NCBI RefSeq assembly: GCF_007970185.1
Contig: NZ_CP042431.1
Coordinates: 558,001-622,000, forward strand
Origin: Pseudobacter ginsenosidimutans
GTDB lineage: Bacteria; Bacteroidota; Bacteroidia; Chitinophagales; Chitinophagaceae
Length of the DNA: 64,000 bases
Direction of reading: 5' to 3'
The position numbers and the translations under genes were made by a program. Position 1 is the first letter of the stretch. Each line of letters begins with the position of its first letter. Below, in pieces: positions 2,220 through 9,394 of this stretch. Under the pieces are notes generated by a model that saw nothing but the letters and a program-made list of their open reading frames with translations, was not told where the DNA came from and searched no databases.

Positions 2220-3350
2220 TCAATTTGACTTCTTTTCTTCGTCTTCTTCGTCATCAGATTCGTCTTCATCATCGTTATCTTCTTCTTCGTCTTCATCCTT
2301 ATCATCGTCATCATCATCTTCTTCGTCGTCGTCTTCGCCTTCCTCCTCATCATCGTCACTATCCTCATCGTCTTCATCATTGCCTTCCTCTTCTTCATCA
2401 TCTTCTTCGCCTTCCTCATCCTCCTCTCCATCCTCTTCCTCACCTTCTTCTTCGCCTTCAGTATCTTCTCCGTCCTCTTCTTCTGATTCTTCAGCATCAT
2501 TCTCAGCCGATGCTTCAACTTCAATATTTTCTTCGCTTTCTGCTGTTATTTCATCTTCACCTTCAGGGCCGGGATCCTCTTCGGTTTCGGTGATAAACAC
2601 TTCTTCGATCAATACACCATCTTCATCCACTTTGAAAGTTATATTTTCTTCCGTGGTGATGGTAGTATTTATTTCTTCTGCATTTTCTCCTTCCTGCGCA
2701 ACAGTTCCTTCCTCTTCAACCGGATTAAGCGGTTCGCCATTTTCCATGGCCGCAGCGGCGCTTTCTTCCAGGGCTGCTACTACAGAGGCACTCACCATGC
2801 TATCGTCGAAAACTTCTTTGAGCTTTGGCAGGTCTTCCGCGGTATTGATACCGAAGTAGTCCATGAAGTTCTTGCTGGTCGCATATACGAGGGGGTGACC
2901 AGGCAGTGCTTCATTGCGGCCGGTGATCATCACCAGTTCTTTTTCGAGCAGCTTCTGAATAGCGTAATCACTGCTCACACCGCGGATGGCTTCGATCTCG
3001 GCCTTGGTCACGGGTTGTTTATAAGCGATGATCGACAAGGTTTCCAAAGCTGCGGAAGACAGGCGCTTCAGGAATTTGTCGCCATTCAATTGGGCCACAG
3101 TCTTATGATAATCTTTCTTGGTCAGGAACTGCCATCCGCCGCCGCTCTCGCGCACTTCAAACGGGTAGAATTCGGATCTGTATTTTTCAACGATCCCTTC
3201 CAGGGAGGATTCTACCTGGTCCAGCACGATCTTATCTTCCATGAACCCGAATGCATTATTGATCAATTCGGTGATCTCCAGAGACGTCAGTGGTTTTTCA
3301 CTGGCGAAGATCAGTGATTCGATGTGCGGTATGAGGTTTCCGATTTCCAT
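2220..3350 (-). CDS. scpB: Segregation and condensation protein B with long acidic tail
   Basis: ScpB is a kleisin-associated winged-helix dimer that works with Smc and ScpA in chromosome condensation. Residues 1 to about 175 match the family: IESLIFASEKPLTSLEI near the start, then LSSAALETLSIIAYKQPVTKAEIEAIRGV, the highly conserved winged-helix stretch, and a C-terminal YATSKNFMDYFGI. After about residue 205 the protein becomes almost entirely Glu, Asp, Gly and Ser to residue 376, with poly-acidic runs. Standard ScpB proteins are around 180-220 residues, so the tail nearly doubles the length. The repetitive coding sequence (2222-2540) gives long but spurious open frames on both strands. No scpA is adjacent. 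atpG lies just upstream on the same strand, 35 bases away. Confidence 0.92.
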   Translation of the reverse strand: MEIGNLIPHIESLIFASEKPLTSLEITELINNAFGFMEDKIVLDQVESSLEGIVEKYRSEFYPFEVRESGGGWQFLTKKDYHKTVAQLNGDKFLKRLSSAALETLSIIAYKQPVTKAEIEAIRGVSSDYAIQKLLEKELVMITGRNEALPGHPLVYATSKNFMDYFGINTAEDLPKLKEVFDDSMVSASVVAALEESAAAAMENGEPLNPVEEEGTVAQEGENAEEINTTITTEENITFKVDEDGVLIEEVFITETEEDPGPEGEDEITAESEENIEVEASAENDAEESEEEDGEDTEGEEEGEEEDGEEDEEGEEDDEEEEGNDEDDEDSDDDEEEGEDDDEEDDDDDDKDEDEEEDNDDEDESDDEEDEEKKSN

Positions 3351-5630: not shown

Positions 5631-6746
5631 ATGCGATATTATTTCATTGCCGGTGAAGCATCCGGCGACCTGCATGGCAGCAATCTCATCAAGGAACTCA
5701 AAAAGCTCGATCACTCAGCAACCATCCGCTGCTGGGGTGGCGATCTTATGCAGCAGGCCGGCGGCGAACTGGTGAAACATTATCGCGATCTCGCTTTCAT
5801 GGGCTTCATAGAAGTAGTGAAGAACCTCGGCACCATCATGGCCAACCTCCGCTTCTGCAAGGAAGACATCCTTCAATTCAAACCCGATACACTTGTTCTG
5901 ATCGATTACCCCGGCTTCAACCTCCGCATCGCCGAATGGGCAAAAAAACAGGGCATCAAAGTAGTGTACTACATCTCCCCGCAGGTTTGGGCCTGGAAAG
6001 AGAACAGGGTTAAAAAGATGAAGACCACCATCGATGAAATGCTCGTGATCCTCCCCTTCGAAAAAGATTATTATAAGAATAAATGGAACTGGAATGTTGA
6101 CTATGTTGGTCACCCACTCATCGAAGTAGTGGAAAGCTATCAGCAAGGCAACACGCCTCCAGCCATTCCCAATGCCACCAAGCCCATCATCGCTGTACTA
6201 CCCGGCAGCCGAAAACAGGAGATCCTCAAAAAACTGCCCATCATGCTGGAAGTAGCACGCAGCTTTCCCGATCACCTCTTCGTTGTAGCCAAAGCACCCG
6301 GACAGGAAGATAGTTTCTATGAACCACTCCTTGCGCCCTATCCCAATGTGAGCGCAGTACGCGGACAAACCTATGCGCTGCTCATGCAGTCAGTTGCGGC
6401 TATGGTCACCAGCGGCACTGCCACCCTGGAAACAGCGCTCTTCGGCGTTCCCGAAGTAGTTTGCTACAAAGGCAGCAATATCTCCTACCAGATCGCGAAA
6501 AGACTGATCAAGGTAAAATACATCTCCCTCGTAAATCTTATCATGGATAAACTGGTGGTGAAAGAATTGATCCAGCAGGACCTCACCCCCGAAAACCTGG
6601 TGAAAGAATTGAACGAACTATTGCACAATCCCCAACGCAAACAACAACTGGAAGCCGATTACGCCGCCCTCAGAAAATTACTGGGCGAAGGTGGTCATGC
6701 CTCTTCCAAAGCCGCGAAGAAGATCATCCACTTCCTGCATCAATGA
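5631..6746 (+). CDS. lpxB: Lipid-A-disaccharide synthase
   Basis: GT19 glycosyltransferase that joins UDP-2,3-diacylglucosamine and lipid X into the lipid A disaccharide at the inner membrane. The 371-residue protein has the family opening FIAGEASGDLHGSNLI, the block YISPQVWAWKENRVKKMK at about residues 114-131, LPGSRKQEI near residue 191, and TSGTATLETAL with the C-terminal catalytic-domain features. ATG 5631 lies 39 bases after the small membrane gene. A near-consensus -7 box, CATCTTTG, lies at 5601-5608, so a secondary promoter is possible. The 3' end overlaps the convergent small gene by seven bases. Confidence 0.96.
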   Translation: MRYYFIAGEASGDLHGSNLIKELKKLDHSATIRCWGGDLMQQAGGELVKHYRDLAFMGFIEVVKNLGTIMANLRFCKEDILQFKPDTLVLIDYPGFNLRIAEWAKKQGIKVVYYISPQVWAWKENRVKKMKTTIDEMLVILPFEKDYYKNKWNWNVDYVGHPLIEVVESYQQGNTPPAIPNATKPIIAVLPGSRKQEILKKLPIMLEVARSFPDHLFVVAKAPGQEDSFYEPLLAPYPNVSAVRGQTYALLMQSVAAMVTSGTATLETALFGVPEVVCYKGSNISYQIAKRLIKVKYISLVNLIMDKLVVKELIQQDLTPENLVKELNELLHNPQRKQQLEADYAALRKLLGEGGHASSKAAKKIIHFLHQ

Positions 6747-6913
6747 CGCTTCAGTATCACGAGCTTCACAATAATGATGATGATTGCGATCAGGAACATG
6801 ATCAGCGAAAGACGGTTGATCCCGTGCATGTACTTCATCCACTGAGTGCGTGGTGCATTGGGGTCTTTCTTTTTGATATATAAATACTCGGCAAGTTGTC
6901 TCCAGAATCCCAT
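6740..6913 (-). CDS. Small DUF6728-like membrane protein
   Basis: A 57-residue protein from ATG 6913. The opening MGFWRQLAEYLYIKKKDPNA is followed by TQWMKYMHGINRLSLIMFLIAIIIIIVKLVIL, one C-terminal membrane helix with a basic end. The architecture fits the short Bacteroidota family I know as DUF6728; the name is from memory. The open frame extends to 6994 but the extra residues lack family character. An exact -7 box, TACCTTTG, lies at 6936-6943. The gene converges on lpxB and overlaps it by seven bases. Function unknown. Confidence 0.7.
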   Translation of the reverse strand: MGFWRQLAEYLYIKKKDPNAPRTQWMKYMHGINRLSLIMFLIAIIIIIVKLVILKRH

Positions 6914-6979: not shown

Positions 6980-7113
6980 GGGGTATCGAAACACGGCTGA
7001 TGAAACAAACCGGCGCGGGAGGATTTCTTTGAGCTATTTGTTGGTTGGATTGGACTGTAGTAATGCCATGGATCTACTTCGCTTATGTTTCAAAGGCCGT
7101 GTTTCGATACCCC
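6980..7113 (+). ncRNA. Unnamed stem-loop element, copy A
   Basis: An 18-bp perfect inverted repeat (GGGGTATCGAAACACGGC at 6980-6997 with its complement at 7096-7113) closes a 98-base interior. Just inside, TGAAAC (7001-7006) can pair with GTTTCA (7087-7092). The interior shares blocks with copy B on the opposite strand (7428-7569): AACCnGCGC, GAGGAT, GAGCT, GTTGGTTGG, GACTGT and a 21-base block with one mismatch. The terminal stems of the two copies have unrelated sequences but both pair, which is the pattern of a conserved folded RNA or a folded DNA element. I cannot assign it to a known RNA family. Whether it is transcribed is not shown. Confidence 0.5.
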
Positions 7114-7427
7114 GCTCCCGGCAGGAGAACCTGCATGTGCAGCGTTGTTTAATGAATGTCTGAAGAATTGCGGTACTCCTTAATTCAATGATCCGCAGCA
7201 GTACCTGCCTGAACATCCAGCGTAGGAAAATCATTGTAACGATGCACTAATTAATTTGAACGAATATCAGCTAGGAAAATCTGAATGCAACATAAAGGTG
7301 TAAAAAGAAAATGTACTGAAAGGGAGTGTAAGCGGCAGATGCAGGCCAATCAGTGAAATAGTGAGAAAGGGGGCGCATACTTCTATCAGTATGCTGCATC
7401 ATTCTCCCGCCATAGCATCGTGCTCAG
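7114..7427. other. Gene-free spacer between the two stem-loop copies
   Basis: About 314 bases with no convincing reading frame on either strand. It contains the short shared blocks next to each copy and a small inverted repeat (GCAGG/CCTGC at about 7121-7134). Otherwise I see nothing. Confidence 0.6.
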
Positions 7428-7569
7428 GCAAAGGATTGTGCATAAGGGGCCTTTGAAACGTAAGCGAAAAAGCCCGGCCCTGTTCCACAGTCCCATCAAA
7501 CCAACCAACAGCTCATCCTCTGCACAACTGCGCTGGTTCGTTTCATAGCCACCGTTGCACATCCTTTGC
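7428..7569 (-). ncRNA. Unnamed stem-loop element, copy B
   Basis: Opposite-strand counterpart of copy A. GCAAAGGAT at 7428-7436 pairs with ATCCTTTGC at 7561-7569, and GTGCA at 7438-7442 with TGCAC at 7556-7560. An inner TGAAAC/GTTTCA pair lies at 7454-7459 and 7540-7545. Measured between the GGC/GCC pair closing the core, the interior is 103 bases against 104 in copy A. Positions 7448-7468 are the reverse complement of 7078-7098 with one mismatch. Past the stem both copies keep a GGCrGGAGAA block (7120-7129 in A, 7402-7411 in B). Copy B begins 12 bases after the truncated haemoglobin gene on the same strand, so it could lie in that mRNA's 3' region. Confidence 0.5.
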
Positions 7570-7581
7570 CGAAAACAAAGA

Positions 7582-7962
7582 TTAATGATATCCGGATATC
7601 TTCAACTGCATCACCGTTGCAATCGACACTGCCCGCTGCTCCGCCAGTTCGGCTTTATCGCCTTCAAACAATTCTCGGACAGTTTCCACAAACAACTTCT
7701 TCCATCTTTCAAAATGCACAGGCTGCAACGGAATGCGTGCATTCAGCCGTTTGTGAACGAACATGGGATTACCTTCGTATTCATTTCTGTTCAGCAGGAT
7801 ATCACCCCAGAATTTATACATGGTGGGAAGATGCTCGTCCCAGTGATCGCCAATCACTTCATTGAAGATCGGCCCGATCAGATCATCTTTCCGGGCCTTT
7901 GCATAGAAGGAATCTACCAGCAATACGATGGAGTTATGATCAGTAATTTCTTGCTTTGTCAT
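7582..7962 (-). CDS. Group III truncated haemoglobin
   Basis: A 126-residue 2-on-2 globin. Visible features are FYAKARKDDLIGPIF with the B10-type Tyr at about residue 19, MYKFWGDILL, and the proximal-His region PMFVHKRLNARIPLQPVHFERWKKLF typical of group III truncated globins. These haem proteins bind O2, NO or similar ligands in the cytoplasm; the physiological role of group III members is poorly known. ATG 7962 is preferred over the longer frame reaching 8070, whose extra 36 residues overlap the upstream gene and lack globin similarity. It starts ten bases after the ClC channel stop, so the two genes form an operon. Confidence 0.9.
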   Translation of the reverse strand: MTKQEITDHNSIVLLVDSFYAKARKDDLIGPIFNEVIGDHWDEHLPTMYKFWGDILLNRNEYEGNPMFVHKRLNARIPLQPVHFERWKKLFVETVRELFEGDKAELAEQRAVSIATVMQLKISGYH

Positions 7963-7972
7963 TTTACTAACG

Positions 7973-9394
7973 TTAATGATTATCCGGTTTATTGGTGCTG
8001 GTTGCTGATGAAGGGTTTGCTGGTGGTGTTTCAGGCTGTGGCTGCAATGCTGGTTCCAGTCCTGCTTCATGGATGAAGCGATGCTTCAGATGATCGTAGA
8101 ATGAACGTTTGTCAACCAGCATCGAAACCAGGTAAGCTACCATTCCGGCCAGCATCAGGTGAAAGATCACGTTGTGGCGATCCGTCATTTCCAGCACCAG
8201 GATAGCTGATGTGAATGGCGTTCTGGTAACTCCTGTCAGGAAGGCTACCATGCCTGCCAGTATCAGGATATTGGCATCGGCAGGAGTACAATGCAACCAT
8301 CCGCTCAATACAGAACCCACGCTGGCGCCTGCTGCGAGCGCCGGAGCAAACACGCCACCCGCACCGCCTGTGGTGAAACTCAGCAGGGATCCCAACATGC
8401 GGAGGAAGGGCACATACCATTCCACGTGCTTGTTGTTGGTGAAAAGGGTTTGCGTCATGATCTCCTTACCCGATCCTACCATGGAGCTGCCCCAGACAAA
8501 ACTAATCAGGGCTATCGCCAATGCACAAGCGATAATGTAAATGATTTTTTTGGTGACCTTCCATCGTCCCACGATATTCATCACTCTCAGTATCACACGA
8601 CACAGCGCGCTGCCGCCCAAACCTGCTATCAGCGCCGTGAGCAAAACTCCGGCAAAAATCCAACCCGACAAATGACTTACGTCAGGATATCCTAGATAGA
8701 GGTAAGGTCCCAGCAATGCCTGGGCAGTTAAGCCAGCCAGGATCACGCCAGTGAAAAGGGCTGTTCTGAAATAGCTGATATGCGTACGGGTGAGCTCTTC
8801 CACCGCGAATACCAGTCCACCGAGTGGTGTATTGAAAGCCGCGGCCAGTCCGGCTGCGGCGCCGGTCATGATCATATTCCTCCTGGAGATCTTTGGCCAC
8901 CAGGCTGGCAGCCATTGGTTGATGGTCCTGAAAATGGAACCTGCTATCTGAATGGTAGGCCCTTCCCTTCCTACCACACCGCCACCAAATGCCATCACCA
9001 GGCTGCTGACGATCTTCACCCAGATCACTTTCAGGTTGAGGAGCCTGTTGATCTTCTTTTCATCCTTTGGTGTACTGAGTTCGATGGCTGCAATTACCTG
9101 CGGAATACCGCTGCCTCTCGCGAAAGGCGCATACTTTTTCACCAGCCACCAGGCAAAAAGGAAACAGACAGGAGTGGCAATGAAAAGGCTCCAGCTTGCT
9201 TTGTGCATCATCCATTCAGCGCCTTTCTCTGCGTAGGAGAACATGATCGCGTAAGCTACAGCTACCAGTCCCGTGAGCAAACTCCCGATCCAGAAAGGGA
9301 TCGCCTGGAGCACGTTTTGCTTCATCCTTTCATTCCTGATTCTGTCGAACATCCGTTTAAGCCGCCGGCGAATACCGGTCAGAAGTCTCACCAT
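7973..9394 (-). CDS. ClC-family voltage-gated chloride channel or antiporter
   Basis: Inner-membrane ClC protein of 473 residues with many hydrophobic helices. The three anion-selectivity signatures are present in order: GSGIP (in FARGSGIPQVIAA), GREGPTIQIAG with the gating Glu, and GGVFAPALAAGASVG. There are no C-terminal CBS domains, as in many bacterial ClCs. Whether it is a Cl-/H+ exchanger or a channel cannot be told by eye. ATG 9394 is chosen; the frame is open to 9445 but that would leave almost no room for the divergent rpiA promoter. It is co-directional with the truncated haemoglobin gene, ten bases downstream. Confidence 0.93.
   Translation of the reverse strand: MVRLLTGIRRRLKRMFDRIRNERMKQNVLQAIPFWIGSLLTGLVAVAYAIMFSYAEKGAEWMMHKASWSLFIATPVCFLFAWWLVKKYAPFARGSGIPQVIAAIELSTPKDEKKINRLLNLKVIWVKIVSSLVMAFGGGVVGREGPTIQIAGSIFRTINQWLPAWWPKISRRNMIMTGAAAGLAAAFNTPLGGLVFAVEELTRTHISYFRTALFTGVILAGLTAQALLGPYLYLGYPDVSHLSGWIFAGVLLTALIAGLGGSALCRVILRVMNIVGRWKVTKKIIYIIACALAIALISFVWGSSMVGSGKEIMTQTLFTNNKHVEWYVPFLRMLGSLLSFTTGGAGGVFAPALAAGASVGSVLSGWLHCTPADANILILAGMVAFLTGVTRTPFTSAILVLEMTDRHNVIFHLMLAGMVAYLVSMLVDKRSFYDHLKHRFIHEAGLEPALQPQPETPPANPSSATSTNKPDNH

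Follow-up and report, generated by a model that had tools for sequence, protein, structure and literature searches.

Inward-facing pairs of hairpin repeats in Pseudobacter ginsenosidimutans: a REPIN-like family whose halves may act as folded DNA

We analysed a stretch of 64,000 nucleotides from the genome of Pseudobacter ginsenosidimutans (hereafter the window) and found that two segments in it belong to a large family of paired hairpin repeats. In our reading, to which we give a probability of about one half, this pair represents a REPIN-like, non-autonomous inverted-pair repeat acting as folded DNA. The members appear to be undescribed DNA repeats that spread in the past and have since persisted at their sites, for the most part intact. 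We found no account of the family in the literature of open-licence PMC papers.

An earlier note on this DNA had described two segments in opposite orientation with a common interior, A (6980-7113, plus strand) and B (7428-7569, minus strand), and both aligned as it claimed. The terminal stem of A indeed pairs over all of its 18 bp (Table 1). For B, paired arms were likewise recovered, although the stem measures 10 plus 5 bp around a bulged A rather than the 9 plus 5 bp given before. A GGCrGGAGAA block, which was said to follow both segments, lies near the 3' end of each, but it is local, occurring in these two alone of 116 copies, and is no family feature. In comparison with 200 shuffles, A folded with a z of -6.98 and B with a z of -3.99, each better than 200 of 200. 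The view that this was an unnamed structured element matching no known family held, as Rfam 15 gave no match at the gathering threshold across the 64 kb; a lax Rfam search of four element loci returned seven sub-threshold matches, none overlapping an element. A tRNA or tmRNA identity was also considered, and none was found. The 304 bases between the two profile matches of the pair contain no ORF of 70 aa. The left neighbour of the pair is a DUF6728 gene (6740-6913, minus strand), beyond which lies lpxB (5631-6746, plus strand). The right neighbour is a minus-strand ORF without a Pfam match (7582-8070), whose stop codon lies 11 bases past the outer arm of B. Elsewhere in the window, positions 2220-3350 (minus strand) encode a ScpB homologue (Pfam SMC_ScpB over residues 9-177 of 376) with a long Glu/Asp-rich C-terminal tail, and a single element copy of 93 bits lies 3.5 kb to the left of the window (G000:554342-554478, plus strand, where G000 is the source genome).

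Table 1. Parts of the hairpin pair in the window (positions count from the first base of the window).
Feature	Position	Strand	Basis or remark
Half A, 5' outer arm GGGGTATCGAAACACGGC	6980-6997	+	full pairing with 7096-7113; may reach out to 6972
Half A, inner stem, 5' side (TGAAACA)	7001-7007	+	inner helix, covarying across the family
Half A, G/T-rich conserved loop with two RRRCT boxes	7008-7085	+	conserved blocks; without an internal covarying helix
Half A, inner stem, 3' side (TGTTTCA)	7086-7092	+	covariation
Half A, 3' outer arm	7096-7113	+	pairing with 6980-6997
Half A, tail motif GTGCAGC	7137-7143	+	at a fixed position in 40 of 108 copies
Spacer separating the halves, without an ORF of 70 aa	7144-7391		in G004 the orthologous pair has one about 220 bp shorter
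Half B, displaced tail-like motif TGCAGCA	7392-7398	-	direct reading
Half B, 3' outer arm, bulged A at 7437	7427-7442	-	folding
Half B, inner stem, 3' side (CGTTTCA)	7454-7460	-	covariation, direct reading
Half B, G/T-rich conserved loop	7461-7538	-	alignment to A, conserved blocks
Half B, inner stem, 5' side (TGAAACG)	7539-7545	-	covariation, direct reading
Half B, 5' outer arm GGCAAAGGATGTGCA	7556-7570	-	folding, direct reading
Half B, T-rich stretch directly 5' of the arm	7571-7579	-	peak of T-tracts in the family; half A has none there

A search for homologous copies, which the earlier note had proposed, revealed many of them in the source genome, a single contig of 7.8 Mb in which genes were called by ORF length only. 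Blastn with A gave at least 42 matches (the best 40 of 85 candidates were scored, and two matches were A's own arms against each other), and blastn with B gave another set that partly overlapped the matches of A. A covariance model was then built from 62 of 68 copies, the 6 excluded ones being truncated; it gave at least 119 matches, at least 112 of them at 49 bits or more, among the best 150 of 2014 candidates scored. Finally, nhmmer over 328 kb fetched around the matches identified 116 copies, which comprise 39 pairs (78 copies) and 38 singles. All 39 adjacencies within 2 kb have a plus copy first and then a minus copy, so that the two face inward, and no other arrangement was observed; this strict inward pairing is a feature absent from the earlier note. 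The spacers range from 102 to about 870 bases, except in one doubtful pair (7514815/7516795), whose copies lie 1936 bases apart and which rests on a weak partial hit. The paired copies are in a better state than the single ones, both in bit score (100.6 vs 87.3, p 0.001) and in arm pairing (-40.7 vs -33.0, p 0.008), which suggests that the pair is the unit.

The spacers of 28 pairs were mostly without coding content, and those at different loci share short stretches only. These spacers are otherwise unrelated, and the common stretches, of 20-124 bases and in either orientation, are perhaps remnants of an ancestral spacer. One spacer holds a RibD_C gene (pair 7133552/7134578 of the source genome), and the same stretch lies between the halves in a congener, G004, which makes it a pair with cargo. 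At two other copies, 984738 (plus) and 5454626 (minus), a tandem duplication of the beginning of the 5' arm, for example CTCGCAACGGGATAT twice, lies immediately upstream of the element; slippage at a hairpin might leave such a trace.

A typical half is a hairpin of about 185 bp. Its arms, which could be cut from 108 of the 116 copies, are about 24 bp of free sequence (the 5' arm has a median of 24 Watson-Crick pairs) and enclose an inner stem of the form GAAACR/YGTTTC and a loop of about 78 nt. This loop is G/T-rich and strand-asymmetric (36% G, 31% T, 16% C, 17% A). Over 62 copies, 14 columns are invariant and 25 nearly invariant, and the mean ungapped identity of 5' arms between copies is 0.40; thus the ends vary and the interior is conserved. 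RRRCT boxes occur 2.02 times per core against 0.69 in shuffled sequences, mostly 18-21 nt apart in the loop, and three or more are present in 31 of 108 copies. No helix inside the loop was supported by covariation, and mutual information recovered the pairs of the arms and inner stem alone. Four GG runs were found in 58 of 108 loops, compared with 19.8 in mononucleotide shuffles, but runs of the G-quadruplex kind are not kept in all copies. Past the inner stem, at 40-45 nt, a tail motif around TGCANCAG stands at one position in 40 of 108 copies. A T-rich stretch lies 5' of the arm and peaks between -50 and -40 relative to the inner stem, alike at sense and antisense sites.

Outside the source genome, the family was detected in three congeners (G001, G002 and G004), one of them named Pseudoflavitalea rhizosphaerae, and in a draft genome of another genus of the Chitinophagaceae. 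Among 39 genomes including its own, matches were present in the source genome, in G001 (41, and 46 in a closer search) and in G002 and G004 (at least 84 each); the congeners G003 and G005 had no element matches in this search, and a marginal match in G038 (E 0.0085) was taken as chance. Two larger draws of genomes from the Chitinophagaceae gave matches in 5 of 195 and 5 of 394 genomes, figures obtained with stricter filters and the best 16 and best 9 candidates per genome, under which weak families may be missed. Among these matches, the draft genome of another genus (G171) contained three copies, and a weak match in G084 from the draw of 195 genomes was not recovered in the draw of 394. A pattern scan of GTDB genomes matched P. 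rhizosphaerae KACC 18655 and the metagenome-assembled genome BIN25. Searches of viral contigs by exact pattern, and of plasmids and phages by blastn with A, gave no element. In G001, where the copies are more divergent, most of the 15 that were folded have the same kind of long arms, and all 13 adjacencies within 1.5 kb (26 of the 46 matches) again have the plus copy first and the minus copy second.

The earlier note had compared the terminal stems of two copies only, and across the family the covariation of the arms proved very strong. In a structural alignment of 147 copies from the source genome and G001, an approach that leans to its model, 91.3% of cells were paired and all 19 pairs showed two-sided changes. 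These two-sided changes amounted to 847 cells, compared with 260 in shuffled alignments, and neither the paired percentage nor the covariation score was reached by any of 500 shuffles. The covariation score was 0.689, against 0.177 when shuffled and at most 0.10 in slid versions, which collapse. One-sided (wobble) changes numbered 29 cells. Independently of any alignment, a copy's own arms pair at -38.2 kcal/mol, whereas arms of different copies pair at -19.4 kcal/mol, and the own partner was the best of 108 arms in 73 of 108 copies. Matching was also followed between species. A count of compensation against G002 gave 109 compensated and 40 uncompensated double changes and 211 one-sided breaks; because misalignment blurs this count, we replaced it by hybrid stems formed between orthologues, taking 44 of 50 orthologues in G004, 26 of 30 in G002 and 4 of 13 in G001. 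Hybrid stems between the source genome and G002 paired worse than the species' own stems in 24 of 26 cases (p 1.8e-5). With G004 the difference was small (13 of 44 hybrids paired worse and 27 equally well, p 0.011), and with G001 the hybrids were worse in 3 of 4 cases (p 0.25).

Such changes could point to an RNA. The strongest rival explanation, which we regard as possible though rather unlikely, is that the halves are structured RNA at the 3' ends of transcripts, where a hairpin formed on read-through would stop or protect the end of the mRNA or yield a small RNA. Where the neighbours of a pair converge, its halves are in most cases in sense orientation and a short way beyond the stop codons. 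Relative to the gene on their 5' side, 80 of the 116 copies are in sense, 35 in antisense and 1 is unresolved, a bias to the 3' sides of genes, and the strand-asymmetric base composition of the loop is also in keeping with this explanation. Wobble pairs gave divided testimony. In the inner helix, G-T pairs outnumber A-C pairs by 28 to 14 (p 0.044), and in a count over longer arms they do so by 79 to 39 (p 2.9e-4), an excess consistent with a single sense strand, such as RNA, and one that counts against folded DNA; the arms of the structural alignment showed no G-T preference (31 G-T vs 41 A-C). The two arm counts disagree, and our conclusion rests on neither. Against the RNA explanation, antisense copies were not detectably worse kept than sense copies (82 copies, with one antisense copy counted as sense, vs 34; p 0.64 and 0.23), one-sided states are hardly present in the arms, and no Bacteroidetes-type promoter motif (TANNTTTG) was found near the 5' ends. 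Furthermore, a crude test found a hairpin ahead of the T-tract in 26 of 113 copies, as a terminator lying before the element would give. We prefer folded DNA over RNA of 3' untranslated regions because unread copies are in an equal state, one-sided states are few and pairs are better kept than singles. Thus, where the earlier note saw selection on a folded RNA or a folded single-stranded DNA, the change of sequence with pairing kept stands, but selection on RNA is not established. Beside selection, hairpin-templated correction of DNA could contribute to the matched arms.

Comparison of orthologous sites revealed how the pairs came and stayed. At the site in the window, G004 carries an orthologous pair with near-identical arms and a changed core, and only a short intergenic region stands there in G001, G003 and G005. 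Pair sites at which both flanks were found, both halves were absent and the gap was shorter numbered 5 in G001, 5 in G003 and 4 in G005, the window site in G005 being additional to these. This joint absence of both halves makes gain of the pair as one unit probable. Of ten flanks of the source genome, G004 and G002 each had 9, with an element at 8 of them; the figures were 2 of 8 fetched in G001 (9 found), 0 of 6 in G003 and 0 of 6 fetched in G005 (7 found). The one exception among the sites found again in G004 and G002, 6011272, lies at a rearranged border. Many pairs were therefore probably gained before the split of the source genome, G002 and G004 but after the split of G001, and then stayed. 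In the orthologue set, 40 of 166 matches in other genomes (23 in G001, 15 in G002 and 2 in G004) had no orthologue match, and this set overstates sharing because it drew on loci fetched for holding elements.

The cores have changed far less than the spacers. Core identity was 0.816 (44 copies) against 0.558 for spacers (21) in G004 orthologues, and 0.687 (26) against 0.344 (9) in those of G002. No young copies were found, as identity between cores of different loci does not exceed 0.88. Within pairs, cores are more alike than otherwise (0.688 in 34 of 39 pairs vs 0.611; reached in 0 of 300 permutations), and 5' arms slightly so (0.535 vs 0.463 overall). At pair 3446077, the two cores of one species are more alike (0.88 and 0.86 in the source genome and G002) than orthologous cores are (0.71 and 0.65), as conversion between the halves would produce. 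However, this concerted pattern is not general: in a comparison of 16 pairs with G004, orthologous cores (0.82, 0.80) were more alike than partners (0.71, 0.70), and in 7 pairs compared with G002 the four core means were 0.66, 0.66, 0.72 and 0.65. The reverse of what several other pairs show was observed at 7655673/7656162, whose halves have identical 5' arms and different cores.

Persistence in place with pairing kept might also be expected of a host DNA site, that is, a chromosomal landmark such as an insulator or a putative site for a nucleoid or topology protein between convergent genes, a role that has been proposed for BIMEs. Among the 38 pairs with both neighbours resolved, 21 lie between convergent genes by ORF-based calls, and the RRRCT boxes of the loop, with their spacing of 18-21 nt, agree with such a site. 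However, the remaining pairs are 15 tandem and 2 divergent ones, and no element was found in two congeners whose gene order is conserved at the sites compared, and for us this explanation is considerably less likely than an RNA. That the family is a decayed relic, namely terminal repeats of a dead transposon without present function whose arms are matched only by a mutational process such as template switching in hairpins, is very improbable: its narrow distribution, intergenic location and lack of young copies would suit a relic, and templated correction can produce matched hairpin arms, but the loop is far better kept than the spacers of the same pairs and its invariant and nearly invariant columns speak against decay.

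Under our preferred reading of the pair as folded DNA, two inward-facing halves would have entered an intergenic site together, and the relatives' empty sites would reflect gain here rather than loss there. The folded form would be DNA, either a hairpin of one strand or a cruciform, and a protein supplied in trans may recognise the constant G/T-rich loop that caps a well-paired stem. Such recognition would require the stem to be Watson-Crick paired and would allow it any sequence. The arms would be kept matched by selection for folding and probably also by hairpin-templated correction, and the two loops of a pair may at times be made alike by conversion between inverted copies. The family would have spread in ancestors of the clade and would now be mostly inherited vertically, so that folded DNA and protein may originally have served spreading and perhaps now serve a host task. 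A bolder version, which we consider doubtful, is that the arms serve as a locus-specific 'address': the same protein-binding loop would sit on a matched stem with its own sequence at each locus, and the inward pair would form one DNA-level device, e.g., a bridge between two hairpins, at gene borders. We know of no counterpart of such an address-type chromosomal element.

A mobiliser was sought through PF01797 and PF00078 only, and none was identified. One Y1_Tnp gene is present in each of the 6 genomes of the genus that were searched, but a Y1 transposase is not co-distributed with the element, since it also occurs in G003 and G005, and we rejected it. The sole Y1 transposase-like gene found in the source genome (L165:1435-1863, minus strand, at about 7.347 Mb, 142 aa) has its nearest element copies about 10 and 18 kb away. 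It sits tightly between ORFs that by eye resemble DAHP synthase/chorismate mutase and 3-dehydroquinate synthase, and it is perhaps a domesticated RAYT-like gene. A reverse transcriptase (RVT_1, PF00078) was absent from the source genome and occurred once each in G002, G003 and G004. Direct repeats at the outer ends of the 39 pairs showed no excess (5.69 vs 5.75 permuted) with the ends of the element placed approximately.

With respect to known systems, attC sites of integrons have constant ends around a variable apex, whereas our hairpins have variable ends and a constant apex. The nearest known kind is the REPIN, a high-copy, intergenic, inverted doublet of REP sequences (PMC3116915, in part). 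According to that part of the source, the inverted doublet is the prevailing unit, doublets are better kept than singlets, changes are compensatory and the spacer is less conserved, and all of this applies to our family. The present elements differ from REPINs as described there in that each half is about 185 bp long and folds on itself instead of pairing with the other half into one hairpin, the arms of the two halves are mostly unrelated, the GTAG/CGTC tag and an adjacent RAYT gene are absent, the spacers have the lengths given above and copies persist at orthologous sites. The REP and BIME palindromes of the GTAG and CGTC classes are 20-40 bp long and have a terminal tetranucleotide (PMC3733652, in part). 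Like them, our elements are intergenic palindromes mostly between convergent or tandem genes; in our 5' arms, GTAG occurred in 5 of 108, against 18.6 expected by shuffling, and CGTC in 3, against 8.2. MITEs such as Correia, ERIC, RUP and the Yersinia palindrome are non-autonomous, have inverted repeats and can fold as RNA (PMC2229807, in part), and the same holds here. Unlike the MITEs treated in that text, our elements are most variable, not most conserved, in their outermost parts, and no target duplication was seen around the approximate ends. Long perfect inverted repeats are also described in mitochondrial genes of Nematomorpha (PMC6649704, in part), but those lie inside protein genes and, in the section concerned, form no dispersed family. 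The REPIN is thus the closest relative in kind, yet our element lacks defining marks of REP, REPIN and MITE.

These 116 copies in one genome, many of them common to other species, constitute a large natural data set in which stems keep their pairing as their sequence turns over, with few one-sided intermediates. They make it testable whether covariation stems from selection on a folded strand or from templated correction at the DNA level. For pipelines that seek new RNAs they are a warning, as strong covariation can mark DNA palindromes. Finally, they add a class of inverted-pair repeats that fails the marks of the REP/RAYT system.
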